NCBI GenBank assembly: GCA_035308905.1
Contig: DATGFS010000070.1
Span: 1-34,206, forward strand
Length of the DNA stretch: 34,206 bases
Source of the DNA: a bacterium
GTDB lineage: Bacteria > Sysuimicrobiota > Sysuimicrobiia > Sysuimicrobiales > Segetimicrobiaceae
Reading direction: 5' to 3'
Shown here: one piece after another, positions 9,814 through 33,987 of the stretch
Layout of the letters: the number at the start of each line of letters is the position of its first letter
Numbering within the stretch: position 1 is the first letter of the stretch
Position numbers and translations under genes: made by a program
Notes under the pieces: generated by a model
Told to the model about the DNA's origin: nothing
Seen by the model: the letters and a program-made list of their open reading frames with translations, nothing else
Databases searched by the model: none

Positions 9814-9901
9814 GACGGCGCCGACTCGGACGGCAACGCCGCCGGGAGGCCGCGACGCCGCCGGAGGCCCTTGGACGATCAGATCGGGGTGGAGGCGAAT
9901 C

Positions 9902-24898: not shown

Positions 24899-26629
24899 TT
24901 GTCGGAGATCGCCGACTTTCTTGAGCTCAAGCAGGAATCGTCGTTCCGGGTCAATGCCTACCGCAAGGGCGCCCGCGCGGTCGAGAGCCTAAGCGAGGAC
25001 GTCGCGGCCGTCGCCGCGCGCGGGGAGCTGCGAAAGATCCCCGGCGTCGGCGCGGGCCTCGCGGAGAAGATCGAGGAGTATCTTCGCACGGGCGCGATCA
25101 CGTACCATGAGACCCTGCGGGGCGATCTCCCGGCCGGGCTGCCGGAGTTGATGACGATTCCCGAGGTCGGGCCCAAGACGGCGCTGCTGCTGTACCGGGA
25201 GCTCGGCATCGCCGACGTGGACGCGCTCGAGCAGGCCTGCCGCGACGGACGCGTGCGCGCGCTGCCGCGGCTCGGCGCGCGGTCCGAGACGAACATCTTG
25301 AAGGGGATCGAGCGGCGCCGGCAGCAGGGCACGCGCCGGCCCGCCTTCGAGGTACGCCCGCTCGTGGACGCGGTGGTGGACGGGCTCCGGCGTGCGGCGG
25401 GCGTCGAGGCGGTGAGTGTGGCCGGGAGTCTGCGCCGGCTGCGCGATACGGTCGCCGACATCGACATCGTGGTCGGGGCGGTGGACCCGCCGGCGGTGAT
25501 GGGGGCGCTCGTCGCGCTGCCCCAAATCGCGCAGGTGCTGTCGAAGGGTCCGACCCGGGCGAGCGTGCTGCTCGGCCGCATGGCCGTCCAGTGCGACGTG
25601 CGGGTGGTCGAGCCGGTCTCCTACGGCGCGGCGCTGCAGTACTTCACCGGCAGCAAGGAGCACAACGTGCGCCTGCGGGAGATCGCGGTGCGCCGCGGGC
25701 TGCGCATCAACGAGTACGGCGTGTACGACGTCGCCGCGGCGCCCGCGCCCGATCCGGCCGGGGACGCCGCCGGCCGGGCCGGCCGCCGGATCGGCGGGGC
25801 GACCGAGGAAGAAGTGTACGCCGCGGTCGGGCTGCCGTGGATTCCGCCCGAGATTCGGGAGGGGCAGGGCGAAATCGAGGCGGCGCAGCGCGGCGAGCTG
25901 CCGGCGCTCGTGACGCTCGAAGAGATCCGCGGCGACCTGCACATGCACACGCAGTGGAGCGACGGCAAGGACACCGCGGAGGTGATGGCGCGGGCGGCCG
26001 CGTCCCGCGGCTACGAGTACTGCTGCATTACCGATCATTCGCAGTCCCTCAAGTTCGCGCGCGGCGTCACGGTGGAGGATCTGCGGGCGCACGCGGCGGC
26101 CGTCCGCGGGCTGTCCGACGCGGTGGGGATCCGGGTGCTGATGGGCGCCGAGGTGGACATTCTCGGCGACGGATCGCTCGACTATCCCGACGACGTGCTG
26201 GCCGGGCTGGATCTGGTGGTCGGCTCGATCCACAGCCGGTTCCGGATGGCGCGCGACGAGATGACGAAGCGGGTGATCCGCGCGCTCGAGCATCCCCACC
26301 TCGACGTGCTCGGCCATCCGACGGGGCGGCTGATCGGCGAGCGCCCGCCGTACGACCTGGACATTGACGCCGTCCTCGAGGCCGCGCGGCGGACCGAGAC
26401 GGCGATCGAGATCAACGCATCGCCGGACCGGCTGGACCTGCCCGACGTGCACGTCCGGGCGGCCCGTGAGCGCGGCGTCCTGGTCGCGATCGACACCGAC
26501 GCGCACCAAAAGGCGCACCTCGCGTTCATGCCCTACGGCGTCGGCGTCGCCCGGCGCGGTTGGATGGACGCGGCCCACGTCGTCAACGCCTGGCCGCTCG
26601 CCACGCTGCTCGCCTTTTTGGCCCGCTAG
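24899..26629 (+). CDS. polX: DNA polymerase X with PHP domain
   Basis: A family-X DNA polymerase/3'-5' exonuclease used in base-excision and gap repair. Helix-hairpin-helix motifs ([24 protein letters not shown]) precede the nucleotidyltransferase core with [18 protein letters not shown] near residue 176, where the Asp pair binds metal. The C-terminal PHP domain starts [11 protein letters not shown] (about 345) and has ITDHSQ, GSIHSRF, HPTGR and IDTDAHQ. Size fits full-length bacterial PolX. TTG 24899 is the first ordinary start (576 aa) but lacks a ribosome site and cuts the conserved N-terminus; CTG 24863, overlapping the CvpA stop as CTGA, is in frame and adds 12 residues (NLELAHLL region) that look homologous. 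It precedes the glycosylase by two bases. Confidence 0.93.
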
Positions 26630-26631
26630 GC

Positions 26632-27447
26632 GTGGCGCCGCGTCTGCCGCGGACGTTCTTTGCGCGCCCGACGATCGTCGTCGCCCGCGATCTCCTCGGT
26701 TGCTACCTGGTGCACGAGACCTCCCACGGGCGCCTGTGCGGCCGGCTCGTGGAGGTCGAGGCGTATCTCGGACCGCGCGATCCCGCGAGCCACGCCTACC
26801 GGCGCACCCCGCGCAGCGAAGTGATGTGGGGCCCCCCGGGCACGGCCTACGTCTACTTTAGCTACGGCAATCACGCGTGCCTGAACGTCGTGACGGAGCC
26901 GGAAGGCATCGCCGGGGCGGTGCTGCTCCGGGCGATCGAGCCGGTCGACGGCATCGACGAGATGGCGCGCCGGCGCGGGACGGGCGTGCCGCGGCTGATC
27001 GGGGGAGGGCCGGGCCGGCTCACCGAGGCGCTCGGCGTGACGCTGGCCGACAACCGCGCGGATCTCGTGCGGGGACCGCTCTACCTCGCGCGCGGCGCGG
27101 CGCCGCGCCGGATCGTGGCGACGCCGCGCATCGGGATCTCGGTGGCCACCGACGTGCCGTGGCGCTTCGTCGATTCGGACTCTCCGTGCCTCTCGCGGCC
27201 GCTCGGCAGGAGGCCGCGGAAGCGGCCGGAGGTCCCGCGCAGACGGGGCAGGAGGCCGCGGAAGCGGCCGGAGGTCCCGGGCAGACGGGGCAGGAGGACG
27301 CGAAGCGGCCGGAGGTCCCGCGCAAGACGGGGCAGGAGGCTGCGGAAGCGGCCGGAGGTCCCGCGCAGACGGGGCAGGAGCGGTGCGCCGGTGCGCCAAA
27401 GTGCGCCTGACAGATCGGGCGGCCGCGGTCGTGCGGCACGGGGGTGA
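26632..27447 (+). CDS. 3-methyladenine DNA glycosylase (AAG/MPG family) with repeated basic tail
   Basis: A 271-aa alkyladenine DNA glycosylase that removes damaged purines. The family core ends near residue 193: ARDLLGCYLV, catalytic Glu in RLVEVEAYLGPRDPASHAY, EVMWGPPGTAYVYFSYGNH and GGPGRLTEALGV are visible. The core ends with WRFVDSDSPCLSRPLGR, where the family normally stops. About 75 further residues, rich in Arg, Lys and Pro (unit RRPRKRPEVPRRRG), come from a 42-bp tandem repeat. GTG 26632 lies two bases after polX. The stop overlaps the acyl-CoA ligase start as GTGA, which supports the tail frame as the one used. The pairing with polX makes a repair operon. Confidence 0.9.
   Translation: MAPRLPRTFFARPTIVVARDLLGCYLVHETSHGRLCGRLVEVEAYLGPRDPASHAYRRTPRSEVMWGPPGTAYVYFSYGNHACLNVVTEPEGIAGAVLLRAIEPVDGIDEMARRRGTGVPRLIGGGPGRLTEALGVTLADNRADLVRGPLYLARGAAPRRIVATPRIGISVATDVPWRFVDSDSPCLSRPLGRRPRKRPEVPRRRGRRPRKRPEVPGRRGRRTRSGRRSRARRGRRLRKRPEVPRRRGRSGAPVRQSAPDRSGGRGRAARG
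27207..27380 (+). repeat. 42-bp minisatellite, four copies, inside the glycosylase gene
   Basis: Units at 27207-27248, 27249-27290, 27291-27332 and 27333-27374, plus a six-base partial. Copies differ by few bases. Unit 3 has lost one G and gained one A, so its length is kept but its central reading frame shifts and is restored. In the gene's frame each unit gives 14 residues rich in Arg/Lys/Pro; a second frame is also open. Confidence 0.9.
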
Positions 27448-29114
27448 ACCGTCCGGTGCAGGGGGAGGGGCGCGAACGGCCGTGGGACCGCTTCTGGCCG
27501 GACCACGTCCCGCGGTCCATCGAGTATCCGGCGCAGCCCGCCTCGTGGATTCTCCTGCGCAACCTCCCGCACTACGCCGAGCGCCCCGCGATCCGTGTGG
27601 TGGATCCGGAGACCGCGGAGGAGCGCGGGCGGCTCACGTACGACGAGCTCTGCGCCCGGTCGCGGGCGCTCGCGGCCGGACTCGTCCGCGCGGGCGTCCG
27701 CCGGGGCGAACGCGTGGCGTTCTTTCTTCCGAACTCGCCGGCGCTGATCGCGGCCTACTTCGGGACGTGGCTGGCCGGCGCCGTGGGCGTGCCGTGCAAC
27801 CCGATGCACAGAACCGCAGAACTCGAGTATCAGCTCCGCGACGCGGAGGCGTCGGTGCTGCTCACCTCCGGGCCGCTGTACCCGACGGCGGCGGAGGTCG
27901 CCGCGCGCCTTCGGATTCCGGTCTTCGTGGCGCCGGTCGGCGCGGCGGCGGGCCGGCCGGCGGACGGGCTTCCCGACGGGGCGACCCCGTGGACGGAGCT
28001 GTTCGCGTCCGCGGACGGATTCGAGCCGGTCCCCGTCGATCCGGACGCGGACCTCGCGCTTCTGCTGTACACCGGCGGCACGACCGGCGCGCCCAAGGGC
28101 GCGATGCTGACCCATCGGAACATCGTCGCCAACACCGTCCAGTTCGCCACGTGGTACGGGTTCGAGGAGGGCGGGGAAACCTGCATCGCGGCCCTCCCGA
28201 TCTTTCACAGCGGCGGCATGGCGGGCGCGATGAACGTCCCGTTGTACGCCGGAGCGGCCCTTGTGCTCTTCGAGCGGTTCCGCCCGGCAGGGATCGCGCG
28301 GGCCATCGCCCGTTACGGGTGTACGCGGTTTTTCGGCGTCCCGACGATGTACGCCGCGATTCTGAACCTGCCGGACTGCCGCGATTACGATCTGTCCTCG
28401 CTGCGCGTCTGCCGCACCAGCGCGGCGTCGCTGCCCGCGGCGGTGAAGGCGCGATTCGACGAGCTGGCGGGACGCGAGATTCTCGTCGAAGGGTACGGGC
28501 TCAGCGAGACGAGCCCGCTCGCCGTCGCGAATCCGCCGCGGCGCAGCAAGGCCGGCGCGATCGGCATTCCGCTGTCCGACACCGACGCCGCCGTCGTCGA
28601 TCCGCGAACGGGCGCGGCGGCCGCGCGCGGCGAGCCGGGAGAGCTGGTGCTGCGCGGGCCGCAGGTGATGCGGGGCTACTGGCGCAGGGCCGAGGAGACC
28701 GCCCTGGCGTTCCGCGGCGGGTGGTTTCACACCGGCGACATCGCGCGGCTCGACGAGGAGGGCTACTTCCAGATCGTCGACCGCCTCAAGGACGTCATCA
28801 ACACGGCCGGGTACAAAGTGTGGCCGCGCGAGGTGGAGGAAGTCCTGTATGCCCATCCGGCGGTGCAGCTCGCCGCGGTCGTGGGCATGCCCGACGTGTA
28901 CCGGGGCGAGACGGTGAAGGCCTTCGTCGTGCTCCGGGACGGCGCCGGCGGCGTCACCGGCGACGAGATCACCGCGCACTGCCGGGAGCGTCTCGCGGTC
29001 TATAAGGTGCCCCGCGAGGTGGAGTTCCGGGCGGCGCTGCCGATGAGCGGGGCCGGCAAAATCCTGAAGCGCGTCCTGCGCGACGCGTCCGCCTCCGGAA
29101 ACCGTGAGATTTGA
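27444..29114 (+). CDS. AMP-dependent acyl-CoA synthetase (fatty acid-CoA ligase-like)
   Basis: A 556-aa ANL-family ligase that activates a carboxylic acid as acyl-AMP and then the CoA thioester. The P-loop is LLYTGGTTGAPKGAMLTHRN (about 208-227), followed by ALPIFHSGG, YGLSETSPL, the hinge WFHTGDIARLDEEGYFQIVDR and the adenylation Lys in SGAGKILKR near the C-terminus. The sequence resembles medium/long-chain fatty acid ligases, but the substrate cannot be fixed. GTG 27444 overlaps the glycosylase stop. Its stop overlaps TTG 29111, an alternative start of the next gene. Adjacent to an oxoacid:ferredoxin oxidoreductase, it suggests acyl-CoA or organic-acid metabolism (inference). Confidence 0.93.
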   Translation: MNRPVQGEGRERPWDRFWPDHVPRSIEYPAQPASWILLRNLPHYAERPAIRVVDPETAEERGRLTYDELCARSRALAAGLVRAGVRRGERVAFFLPNSPALIAAYFGTWLAGAVGVPCNPMHRTAELEYQLRDAEASVLLTSGPLYPTAAEVAARLRIPVFVAPVGAAAGRPADGLPDGATPWTELFASADGFEPVPVDPDADLALLLYTGGTTGAPKGAMLTHRNIVANTVQFATWYGFEEGGETCIAALPIFHSGGMAGAMNVPLYAGAALVLFERFRPAGIARAIARYGCTRFFGVPTMYAAILNLPDCRDYDLSSLRVCRTSAASLPAAVKARFDELAGREILVEGYGLSETSPLAVANPPRRSKAGAIGIPLSDTDAAVVDPRTGAAAARGEPGELVLRGPQVMRGYWRRAEETALAFRGGWFHTGDIARLDEEGYFQIVDRLKDVINTAGYKVWPREVEEVLYAHPAVQLAAVVGMPDVYRGETVKAFVVLRDGAGGVTGDEITAHCRERLAVYKVPREVEFRAALPMSGAGKILKRVLRDASASGNREI

Positions 29115-32074: not shown

Positions 32075-33987
32075 CCTTCCCGCTTCAAAACGTCGCAGAA
32101 CGCGTCGACCACCTTGGGGTCGAACTGCGCGCCCGCGCAGCGGCGGAGTTCCGCGACGGCGTCCAGTGAGTACACCATCGCCCGATACGGCCGCACCGTC
32201 GTCATCACGCCGTACGCATCCGCCACGGCGAGGATTCTCGCCCCGAGCGGAATCTGGTCGCCCTTCAGGCCGTCCGGATACCCCTTACCGTCCCACTGTT
32301 CATAACGGTGGCGGAGAATCGCCGCGACGCCCTGCATCCCCTTGACCGGCCGCAGCACCTGCTCCGCAAGCGCCGGAACGGCGCGCACGATGCCGCGCTG
32401 CTGCTCCGTCAGGCGGGAATGGCCGCGGAGAATCGCTTCCGGCACGCCGATCTTCCCGAGATCGTGCAGCAAGGCCGCGCGGCGGAGGTCCACGATCTCC
32501 TCGCGGCTGCAGGACAGCATGCCGGCCGTGGCCTCGACCCACGCCTCCAGGCGCTCGCTGTAGCCGGCCCGGTGGCCGTCGCGGTCGTCGAGGGCCCGAC
32601 CGAGGATCTTGACCTGTTCCTCGGCTTTGAGCGCGCTGCGTTCCGCGTTCAGCAATTTGGCCGCGCGCTCGACGAGCAGCGGGTAGAGCTCCTCGAGGGC
32701 CCAGGGCGTCGGAAGGGGTCCGCCGAGCTCGTAGGCGGCTCCCGACGGGACCGGCCCGGCCGTGCCGTTCGACGGTTGTGGAGATGGCGCTGCGGCGGGG
32801 GGCTCGACGGGGGCCGTCGCCGGCTGCGGCGTCGGGACGGGGTCGGCCGGCGGGGTCGGGACAGAGCCGGCCGGCGGCGTGCTGTCGGCCGACAACGTTT
32901 CTCTCAGACGCGCGCTTTCCGCTTCCAAGATCCGCTTGGCGTCGGACACGGGCGTTCGTTCGGCCGGCGGCTCCGGCCGCGGGTCGGCCTGCCGGACGGG
33001 GGTCTCGAACAGCTCGCGCCGCATCGCCACGAGCCGCGCGCTCTCGCTTTCGAGCTCCTGCCGGGCCGCGGTGATCTGCGCGTCGAGCGCTTCACGGGCC
33101 GCCGTCGCGAGCCGCGCGCTCTCGCTCTCGAGCTCCTGCCGGGCCGCGGCGATCTGTGCGTCAAGCGCTTCGCGGGCCGCCGCGACGCGGGCGTCCTCCG
33201 AGGCCAGGTCGTCGCGCGCCTTCGTCAGCCGCACGTGCTCCGAGGCAAGGCGCGCCCGCTCGATCTGCAGCTCGTTCTGCACCGCCAAGAGCCACAGGTT
33301 GAGCGCCGCCAGCTGTTGACGCGCCTGGTCGAGCCGTGCGCGCTGCGCTTCCAGCTCGCGGTGCGCCTCGGACAGCGACGTGCCCTCGGTCTGCAGAATG
33401 CGCAGCGCCTCGGCGATCCGGACGTCGTCCGCGCCGGCGTCCGGTTGGGGCCCGCCGGCCCGTTCGGCTAACAGGGCACATTCCAGCGCTGTCGCCCCCT
33501 GCATCGCCAGCGCCAGCATGACGTCGAGCTCAGCCGCAGACCAGCTGCGCGGTGCGTCGAAGCAGCAGACGATCGATCCGAGCCTCTTGCCGCCGCGAGT
33601 GAGCGGCCACGAGGCAACGGCGCGGTAGCCCTCGCGCTCCGCGGTCTGGCGCAGCCCGTCATCTTGCGGAAGGTCCCGGACGTCGGAGACGATGACGGGG
33701 CCGGATCCGGATGTGCTGCGATGCTCGGGGATCCCGCCGCGCGAGGCCCACAGGCGCGTCGCCTCGCCGTCCGGGGCGGAGAGGTACACCGCGCCGCGCT
33801 GCCCGCCCGTCAGAGCCAGGGCGGCCACCCCGATCGCCTCGGCGGCGTCGGCCACCGACGTGGACCGCTTCAACGTTCCACTGAGGCTTACGAAACGTTC
33901 TATTAAATTGCCGCCGGAGGACGGAGTGGGAGACTCCTGGTCCCGACGCACCAGCGTACCAGCCTGAGGAACGCCGTCGTCCGTCAT
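32071..33987 (-). CDS. GAF / coiled-coil / degenerate HD-GYP domain protein
   Basis: A 638-aa signalling protein without membrane helices. A GAF-like domain (about 27-172), a long coiled coil (about 185-325, with a two-copy 26-residue repeat), a Pro-rich linker (about 342-405) and an HD-GYP-type domain (about 450-638). HD (AALLHDLGKIGVP) and GYP (WDGKGYPDGL) are kept. The other usual metal-binding residues are replaced: the HS.R His is Tyr (GYSERL), the HP His is Val (RAVPAL), HHE is RYE and the late D of VYDAL is Gly (AYGVM). It may bind but probably not hydrolyse cyclic-di-GMP (inference). ATG 33987 has GGTGGGG six bases upstream. Confidence 0.88.
   Translation of the reverse strand: MTDDGVPQAGTLVRRDQESPTPSSGGNLIERFVSLSGTLKRSTSVADAAEAIGVAALALTGGQRGAVYLSAPDGEATRLWASRGGIPEHRSTSGSGPVIVSDVRDLPQDDGLRQTAEREGYRAVASWPLTRGGKRLGSIVCCFDAPRSWSAAELDVMLALAMQGATALECALLAERAGGPQPDAGADDVRIAEALRILQTEGTSLSEAHRELEAQRARLDQARQQLAALNLWLLAVQNELQIERARLASEHVRLTKARDDLASEDARVAAAREALDAQIAAARQELESESARLATAAREALDAQITAARQELESESARLVAMRRELFETPVRQADPRPEPPAERTPVSDAKRILEAESARLRETLSADSTPPAGSVPTPPADPVPTPQPATAPVEPPAAAPSPQPSNGTAGPVPSGAAYELGGPLPTPWALEELYPLLVERAAKLLNAERSALKAEEQVKILGRALDDRDGHRAGYSERLEAWVEATAGMLSCSREEIVDLRRAALLHDLGKIGVPEAILRGHSRLTEQQRGIVRAVPALAEQVLRPVKGMQGVAAILRHRYEQWDGKGYPDGLKGDQIPLGARILAVADAYGVMTTVRPYRAMVYSLDAVAELRRCAGAQFDPKVVDAFCDVLKREG
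33031..33186 (-). repeat. 78-bp tandem duplication in the coiled coil
   Basis: Two adjacent units, 33031-33108 and 33109-33186, nearly identical. Each encodes 26 residues beginning AREALDAQI, with QELESESARL inside. The duplication keeps the reading frame and the coiled-coil heptad-like pattern, so it lengthens the helix. Confidence 0.85.

Follow-up and report, generated by a model that had tools for sequence, protein, structure and literature searches.

The strongly basic C-terminal tail of an alkyladenine DNA glycosylase (AAG) encoded in the 34,206-nucleotide stretch of bacterial DNA analyzed here (the window) is very probably encoded by four tandem units of a double-hairpin repeat of about 42 bp that is dispersed, probably mobile, and, among the genomes searched, confined to a single genus. 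Because the unit is scattered through the genome, mostly at gene ends, the tail probably arose as a by-product of repeat spread and not as a DNA-binding part made for the enzyme.

The glycosylase was identified by a Pfam search (PF02245, methylpurine-DNA glycosylase; residues 9 to 184 of 271; E = 2.6e-64; 216 bits) that covered profile positions 2 to 180 of 181, and human AAG chains (e.g., 3qi5_A) aligned with residues 4 to 187. From the putative start codon, GTG at 26632, to the TGA at 27445 to 27447, the reading frame stays open across all four units (Table 1). Past residue 190, the predicted protein carries a tail of 81 amino acids, 37 of them Lys or Arg, to which the units contribute 56 residues. 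Tandem Repeats Finder (TRF) placed the array at 27205 to 27380 (period 42, 4.2 copies, 93% matches, score 315), far above chance. The first-pass annotation of this DNA had described in-frame 42-bp units that lengthen the glycosylase with a strongly basic C terminus, as well as a GTGA overlap with the next gene, and both descriptions hold. The AAG gene of a sister species (G002; locus L040) is also followed by a similar AMP-binding gene, as read by eye from the DNA. The second open frame through the repeats that had been pointed out is likewise present (26877 to 27410). However, over the glycosylase core a codon score was positive in the glycosylase frame (+0.38 per codon) and negative in both other forward frames (−0.60 and −0.66); the second frame, which would read Ala/Glu/Gly, was therefore rejected as a real gene there. 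Elsewhere in the window, at positions 33030 to 33182, 78 bp are duplicated in tandem (93% matches between 2 copies); this repeat is apparently unrelated to the 42-bp family.

Table 1. Features of the glycosylase gene, its repeat array, and related sequence in the window
Feature	Position	Strand	Basis
AAG/MPG (alkyladenine/methylpurine-DNA glycosylase) gene including repeat-coded tail	26632..27447	+	PF02245, alignment to human AAG, open frame to TGA
Array of four 42-bp units plus terminal GGCAGGAG (27373-27380)	27205..27380	+	TRF, repeat search, comparison with L039 and L040
Unit 1	27205-27246	+	
Unit 2	27247-27288	+	
Unit 3	27289-27330	+	
Unit 4	27331-27372	+	
Boundary sequence GGCAGGAG, also single copy in repeat-free sister alleles	27205..27212	+	DNA of L038, L039, L040
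Hairpin 1 of unit 1, GGCCGC-GGAA-GCGGCC	27212..27227	+	Fold; family covariation
Hairpin 2 of unit 1, CCCG-loop-CGGG	27234..27247	+	Fold; family covariation
Unit 3 of the other length subtype, total length unchanged; end includes two bases common to unit 4	27289..27332	+	
What is left of the earlier genus tail that lacks repeats, GAPVRQSAPDRSGGRGRAARG; sister-species counterparts SGSPGRQNAPGRS and RGVPVRQSARSRA are colinear	27381..27444	+	
GTGA: glycosylase stop TGA (27445-27447) overlapping GTG of next gene (27444-27446)	27444..27447	+	
AMP-binding (acyl-CoA synthetase-like) gene downstream of glycosylase	27444..29114	+	Pfam PF00501, PF13193
Weak degenerate second repeat copy, just 5' of ATG 9901	9841..9889	+	27.7 bits, E 0.0012

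We searched for the repeat in the genome from which the window comes (G000; 4.0 Mb, 81 contigs) and in two sister species, the other genomes of the genus (G001 and G002). With the glycosylase array as the query, a DNA search returned 43 places in G000, and a two-unit query returned 46. A covariance model built from 15 units of G000 gave at least 79 matches in that genome, 24 in G001, and 22 in G002; these copy numbers are lower bounds, since 150 first-look candidates were scored per genome (150 of 15,905 in G000). Among 28 further genomes, 12 had 1 to 4 weak model matches (best, 29.2 bits) and 16 had none among the candidates scored. The 42-bp repeat family is confined to one genus among the genomes searched. 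The recurrence of the unit at dozens of unrelated gene ends does not support the earlier proposal of a glycosylase-specific DNA-contact tail, and this dispersal also led us to reject that proposal as the origin. Rfam covariance models gave no match in the window from 26600 to 27700 at E values up to 1, and nothing reached a gathering score in 20 loci. We found no report of this 42-bp repeat family in the literature searched; as far as its main text goes, the paper on the phylum Sysuimicrobiota (PMC11604079) does not contain the word "repeat."

The unit consensus is GGCAGGAG-GCCGC-GAA-GCGGC-CGGAGGTCCTGCG-NN-AGACGGGG, with two bases common to successive units, and it contains the Shine-Dalgarno-like motifs AGGAGG and GGAGGT. 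Each unit has two hairpins, both with covariation. The count was made on 113 matches aligned to the model, 109 of them distinct. Pairing held in 95.7% of cells and both-sided changes occurred at 8 of 10 pairs, with 47 double-change cells compared to a shuffled mean of 1.2 (0 of 500 shuffles as high); the alignment was fitted to the structure, which favors pairing, and sliding the partners abolished most of the signal. A loose unit pattern found 58 units, 8 of which were judged to be chance and dropped, leaving 50. A period of 42 bp was present in 29 of 41 distinct regular G000 units, 15 with variable segments of 13 + 8 nt and 14 with 14 + 7 nt, and periods of 45, 51, and 66 were also found. 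Unit 3 of the glycosylase array does carry the compensating −1/+1 change attributed to it at first reading (13 + 8 nt versus 14 + 7 nt in units 1, 2, and 4). Since both arrangements are common in the family, this change is a family-wide subtype difference and is not private to the glycosylase. Private differences are present in each of units 2, 3, and 4. A longer variant with a 66-bp period has an extra hairpin of the GCATCTTTGGCCCGCGCCGCAGGCCCAGA type inside the loop of hairpin 1 (L087 2203-2270, L081 1307-1374, L199, L205, L207, L212, and L192). Pieces of this hairpin type also adjoin other copies, which suggests a second, nested repeat family.

To place the copies relative to genes, we used a custom codon score trained on long open reading frames (ORFs) of the genus in place of proper gene annotation. 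The 113 matches, after removal of four duplicate rows (L079 overlapping L032), gave 103 placed arrays, and the position census was restricted to 68 arrays that scored 38 bits or more and had 330 bp of flank on each side. Intragenic arrays numbered 7 of 68, compared to 58.5% of 4,000 random points in the same loci. The upstream gene was sense to the array in 42 cases and antisense in 12, and for the downstream gene the counts were 52 sense and 8 antisense; the remaining arrays lacked a clear gene on that side. In 36 of the 42 cases with a sense upstream gene, its stop lay at −60 to +110 of the array start (16% for random points). These stops fell mostly immediately before or immediately after the array, so that an array is either silent between genes or a C-terminal tail. 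Some copies form an N-terminal extension of the next gene. Copies therefore sit mainly sense-oriented at junctions of co-directional genes, and the flanking stop and start positions decide whether a copy is silent and intergenic or lengthens a protein at its C or N terminus. Among 56 strong arrays followed by a sense gene, 24 had the first in-frame start codon, as a candidate start, 3 to 21 nt past the element. One copy in G002 (L180 1405-1448) lies in a ribosomal protein operon between rpmJ (L36)-like and rpsM (S13)-like genes, both named by eye.

Reading phase was counted in 20 C-terminal and 13 N-terminal translated copies that were picked automatically; L025 belongs to both sets, and the N-terminal set excludes the AAG array's own alternative frame. 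Phase 1 or 2 was read in 18 of 20 C-terminal and 13 of 13 N-terminal copies. The Arg-rich phase 0 was nominally read in 2 of 33 (AAG and L210) but in 1 of 33 after the peptides were read, L210 being a 40-bp degenerate copy whose peptide is of the usual Gly/Ala type. The AAG tail is thus basic because its array is read in the Arg-rich phase, one of three possible, with codons such as GGC AGG AGG. The net charge of its 80-amino-acid stretch is +33, whereas other C-terminal tails range from −2 to +3 (computed for 13 of 19). Of the 28 Arg codons in the array, 13 are AGG or AGA, compared to 0 of 24 in the glycosylase core, an excess that is as expected of a recent insert; across 71 long ORFs of the genus, AGG contributes 3.3% of all Arg codons. 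We read the phase counts as selection acting generally against the Arg-rich phase, AAG being the exception. In AAG, the Arg-rich tail may be harmless because the protein binds DNA, or it may be useful.

Comparison with the sister species revealed repeat-free alleles. In both G001 and G002, AAG has a single GGCAGGAG where G000 carries 168 bp (4 × 42) more. Beyond the insert the G000 sequence rejoins the sister-species tail without indels, and the sequence flanking the insertion point is in the same reading frame in the two sister species. Even without repeats, their tails of 39 and 28 amino acids are basic, with Lys or Arg at 9 of 39 and 10 of 28 residues and net charges of +8 and +9. AAG stops 0 to 7 amino acids past the core in 9 of 9 other family genomes, and a distant relative (G027; L049) has its own repeat-free tail of 32 amino acids with 9 Lys or Arg. 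Two further differences were counted by hand. Argininosuccinate lyase (ArgH) is 28 residues longer in G000 than in G001, corresponding to 84 bp (2 × 42), and threonyl-tRNA synthetase (ThrRS) has an insert of 37 amino acids (111 bp) in G000, where three units, the last one partial, follow MAERTP; G001 has MAERISVDQITLRLPDG at that place, and G002 has an apparent decayed repeat copy. The repeat-free alleles of the sister species could be contracted arrays, although gain in G000 would be the simpler history. Of the 51 strong arrays in G000, 5 have a site that is also occupied in a sister species, one in G001 (valyl-tRNA synthetase, ValRS) and four in G002. This count would miss decayed copies, and it was reached from raw values of 3 of 51 (G001) and 4 of 51 (G002), which became 1 and 4 when matches to neighboring copies were dropped. 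Because so few sites are shared, the family appears to come and go, unlike fixed control elements. The gene named ValRS by eye from its N terminus has a two-unit N-terminal array in both G000 (L085 2336-2379 plus its neighbor) and G001 (L156 1407-1450).

The first-pass annotation had interpreted the tail as a part of the glycosylase selected to raise nonspecific DNA contact and sliding. The net charge of +33 over 80 amino acids is compatible with such a role, as are the host, a DNA-binding repair enzyme with the sole array clearly in the Arg-rich phase, the basic charge of the sister tails before any repeat (+8 and +9), and the independent 32-residue tail of L049 in G027 with its 9 Lys or Arg. 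We nevertheless consider this explanation quite improbable, given that the element provides ThrRS, ArgH, and other proteins with near-neutral extensions, that the codon usage of the tail is foreign, and that it is found in 1 of 3 species of the genus. Of the earlier interpretation, the in-frame basic extension by a minisatellite stands; the glycosylase-specific contact part is not supported, since the unit is dispersed and AAG ends within 7 residues of the core in all nine relatives. Another reading is a coding-adapted family, with an open 14-codon unit, covarying hairpins, sense-oriented junctions, and filtering by translation, in which essential enzymes, ThrRS and ValRS among them, would have repeat-coded termini and the AAG array, alone in the disfavored Arg-rich phase, would have been kept, or even recruited, for DNA contact as a +33 tail. 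On present evidence this appears unlikely. Somewhat easier to entertain, as a tentative alternative, is that the repeats are functional RNA elements kept at junctions for mRNA protection, a block to read-through, or downstream translation, with coding tails as side effects. The strong sense bias and junction location point in this direction, together with the covarying hairpins, the candidate starts 3 to 21 nt past the element (24 of 56), the Shine-Dalgarno-like AGGAGG and GGAGGT, and the lowered translation described in PMC12306157 for REPs close to stop codons. However, only 5 of 51 strong G000 sites are common with the sister species, no Rfam match was obtained, and long coding arrays in essential genes are hard to fit with regulators.

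Mobilization of the units by a Y1 tyrosine transposase, as in a classical REP/RAYT system, would account for their size, hairpins, dispersal, genus restriction, and intragenic copies, all of which resemble the REPs described in PMC3733652. We regard it as very improbable, because the Y1/RAYT transposase domain (PF01797) was matched in 0 of 3 genus genomes, which are incomplete metagenome-assembled genomes (MAGs), compared to 5 of 14 control genomes, the consensus lacks GTAG at the hairpin foot, and the arrays run head to tail. Hardly credible is an assembly artifact, in which the presence or copy number of the array would be wrong in a metagenome-derived contig. The AAG array does occur in one genome only, and arrays do break assembly, since two contigs of G000 (C13 and C72) start inside the same array type; but units 2, 3, and 4 have private differences, and relative to two sisters the insert comprises exactly a whole number of 42-bp units, with the tail rejoined without indels. 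The two contig ends (G000:C13:2-151, L082, and G000:C72:1-101, L083) begin in the same 40-bp-period array and probably join. That array seemingly has ThrRS on one side and, on the other, a leader containing a terminator-like hairpin. A T-box leader before ThrRS, suspected by eye, received no Rfam confirmation at the gathering score and was rejected.

We favor the explanation that the tail is a by-product of a spreading repeat. The element would spread via a trans-acting route, and slippage or unequal recombination would lengthen the arrays; the 8-bp boundary repeat would be of use to both. The boundary GGCAGGAG could represent a target duplication, microhomology, or the scar of a contracted array; no regular target-site duplication emerged among the copies, many single copies lacking the 3' GGCAGGAG. 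Insertions would persist at protein termini or in short intercistronic gaps that can accommodate them, and, as RNA, the two intergenic hairpins of each unit could protect mRNA or affect nearby translation. In AAG, exactly 4 × 42 bp lies in frame at GGCAGGAG within an older basic tail, and the array would have landed in the phase reading GGC AGG AGG that other translated copies avoid. The resulting Arg-rich tail may be tolerated since its host protein binds DNA, and, judged from the sequences compared here, a DNA-contact role would not be needed to account for it.

The DNA-contact mechanism proposed earlier is probably not the cause of the tail, and the broader result is a dispersed, genus-specific repeat that coding sequence can accommodate. 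Such a repeat can lengthen proteins in multiples of three bases, and its reading phase seems filtered (1 of 33 clearly Arg-rich), making the cost of each phase testable. The case also counsels searching the rest of a genome before a function is assigned to a repeat-coded tail, here in a family that belongs to a poorly known lineage of uncultured bacteria.

The closest known kinds of repeat are REPs, Rickettsia palindromic elements (RPEs), and mycobacterial interspersed repetitive units (MIRUs). RPEs are described as short, selfish palindromes that insert in frame into unrelated protein genes, sometimes adding a segment to the protein, and an RPE-bearing Gmk is reported to be translated and active (PMC2229807, PMC10969869). 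The present repeat resembles them in its in-frame insertion in unrelated genes with empty alleles in relatives (AAG, ThrRS, and ArgH). However, RPEs as described measure about 105 to 150 bp, have terminal inverted repeats, and occur in Rickettsia, whereas the repeat here is a 42-bp unit with two hairpins from a different lineage, arranged in sense-oriented, head-to-tail arrays mostly at gene ends, and so does not belong with them. MIRUs are presented in PMC12548453 as mobile-looking repeats at junctions of co-oriented genes with a −4-nt stop/start overlap, each carrying its own ORF that couples to the gene and whose ends overlap the genes on either side. By contrast, in the phases read the present unit has neither a start nor a stop codon, and the frame of its neighbor runs through it, which sets it apart from MIRUs.

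REPs share features with the present repeat in size, hairpins, dispersal, gene-end position, and coding copies. According to PMC3733652, they are dispersed hairpin repeats of 20 to 40 bp, often just 3' of stops and between co-directional genes, and intragenic REPs are known, including in DNA repair genes, with clusters encoding 43 to 82 amino acids; reduced translation is reported where a REP lies less than 16 nt from a stop codon (PMC12306157). GTAG, given in PMC3733652 as the defining feature of GTAG REPs, is absent from the consensus, which begins GGCAGGAG-GCCGC, and the associated RAYT transposase was found in none of the three incomplete MAGs of the genus. CGTC REPs are characterized there by a CGTC tag, an 8- to 9-bp stem with A-T at its first positions, a 4- to 5-nt loop, a CCA tail, and mainly head-to-head dimers; the reverse strand of the present unit has CCCCGTCT at one end, but its stems are 6 and 4 bp and its arrays run head to tail, an arrangement reported as absent or underrepresented for GTAG REPs and negligible for CGTC REPs. 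Moreover, the best conserved parts of the unit include GGAGGTCC between the hairpins instead of a simple palindrome. Since REP-decorated repair genes and clusters of 43 to 82 residues are already reported in PMC3733652, the phenomenon is known in kind. What is distinctive here is the 42-bp double-hairpin unit, its head-to-tail arrays, its strong sense bias, and its phase bias.
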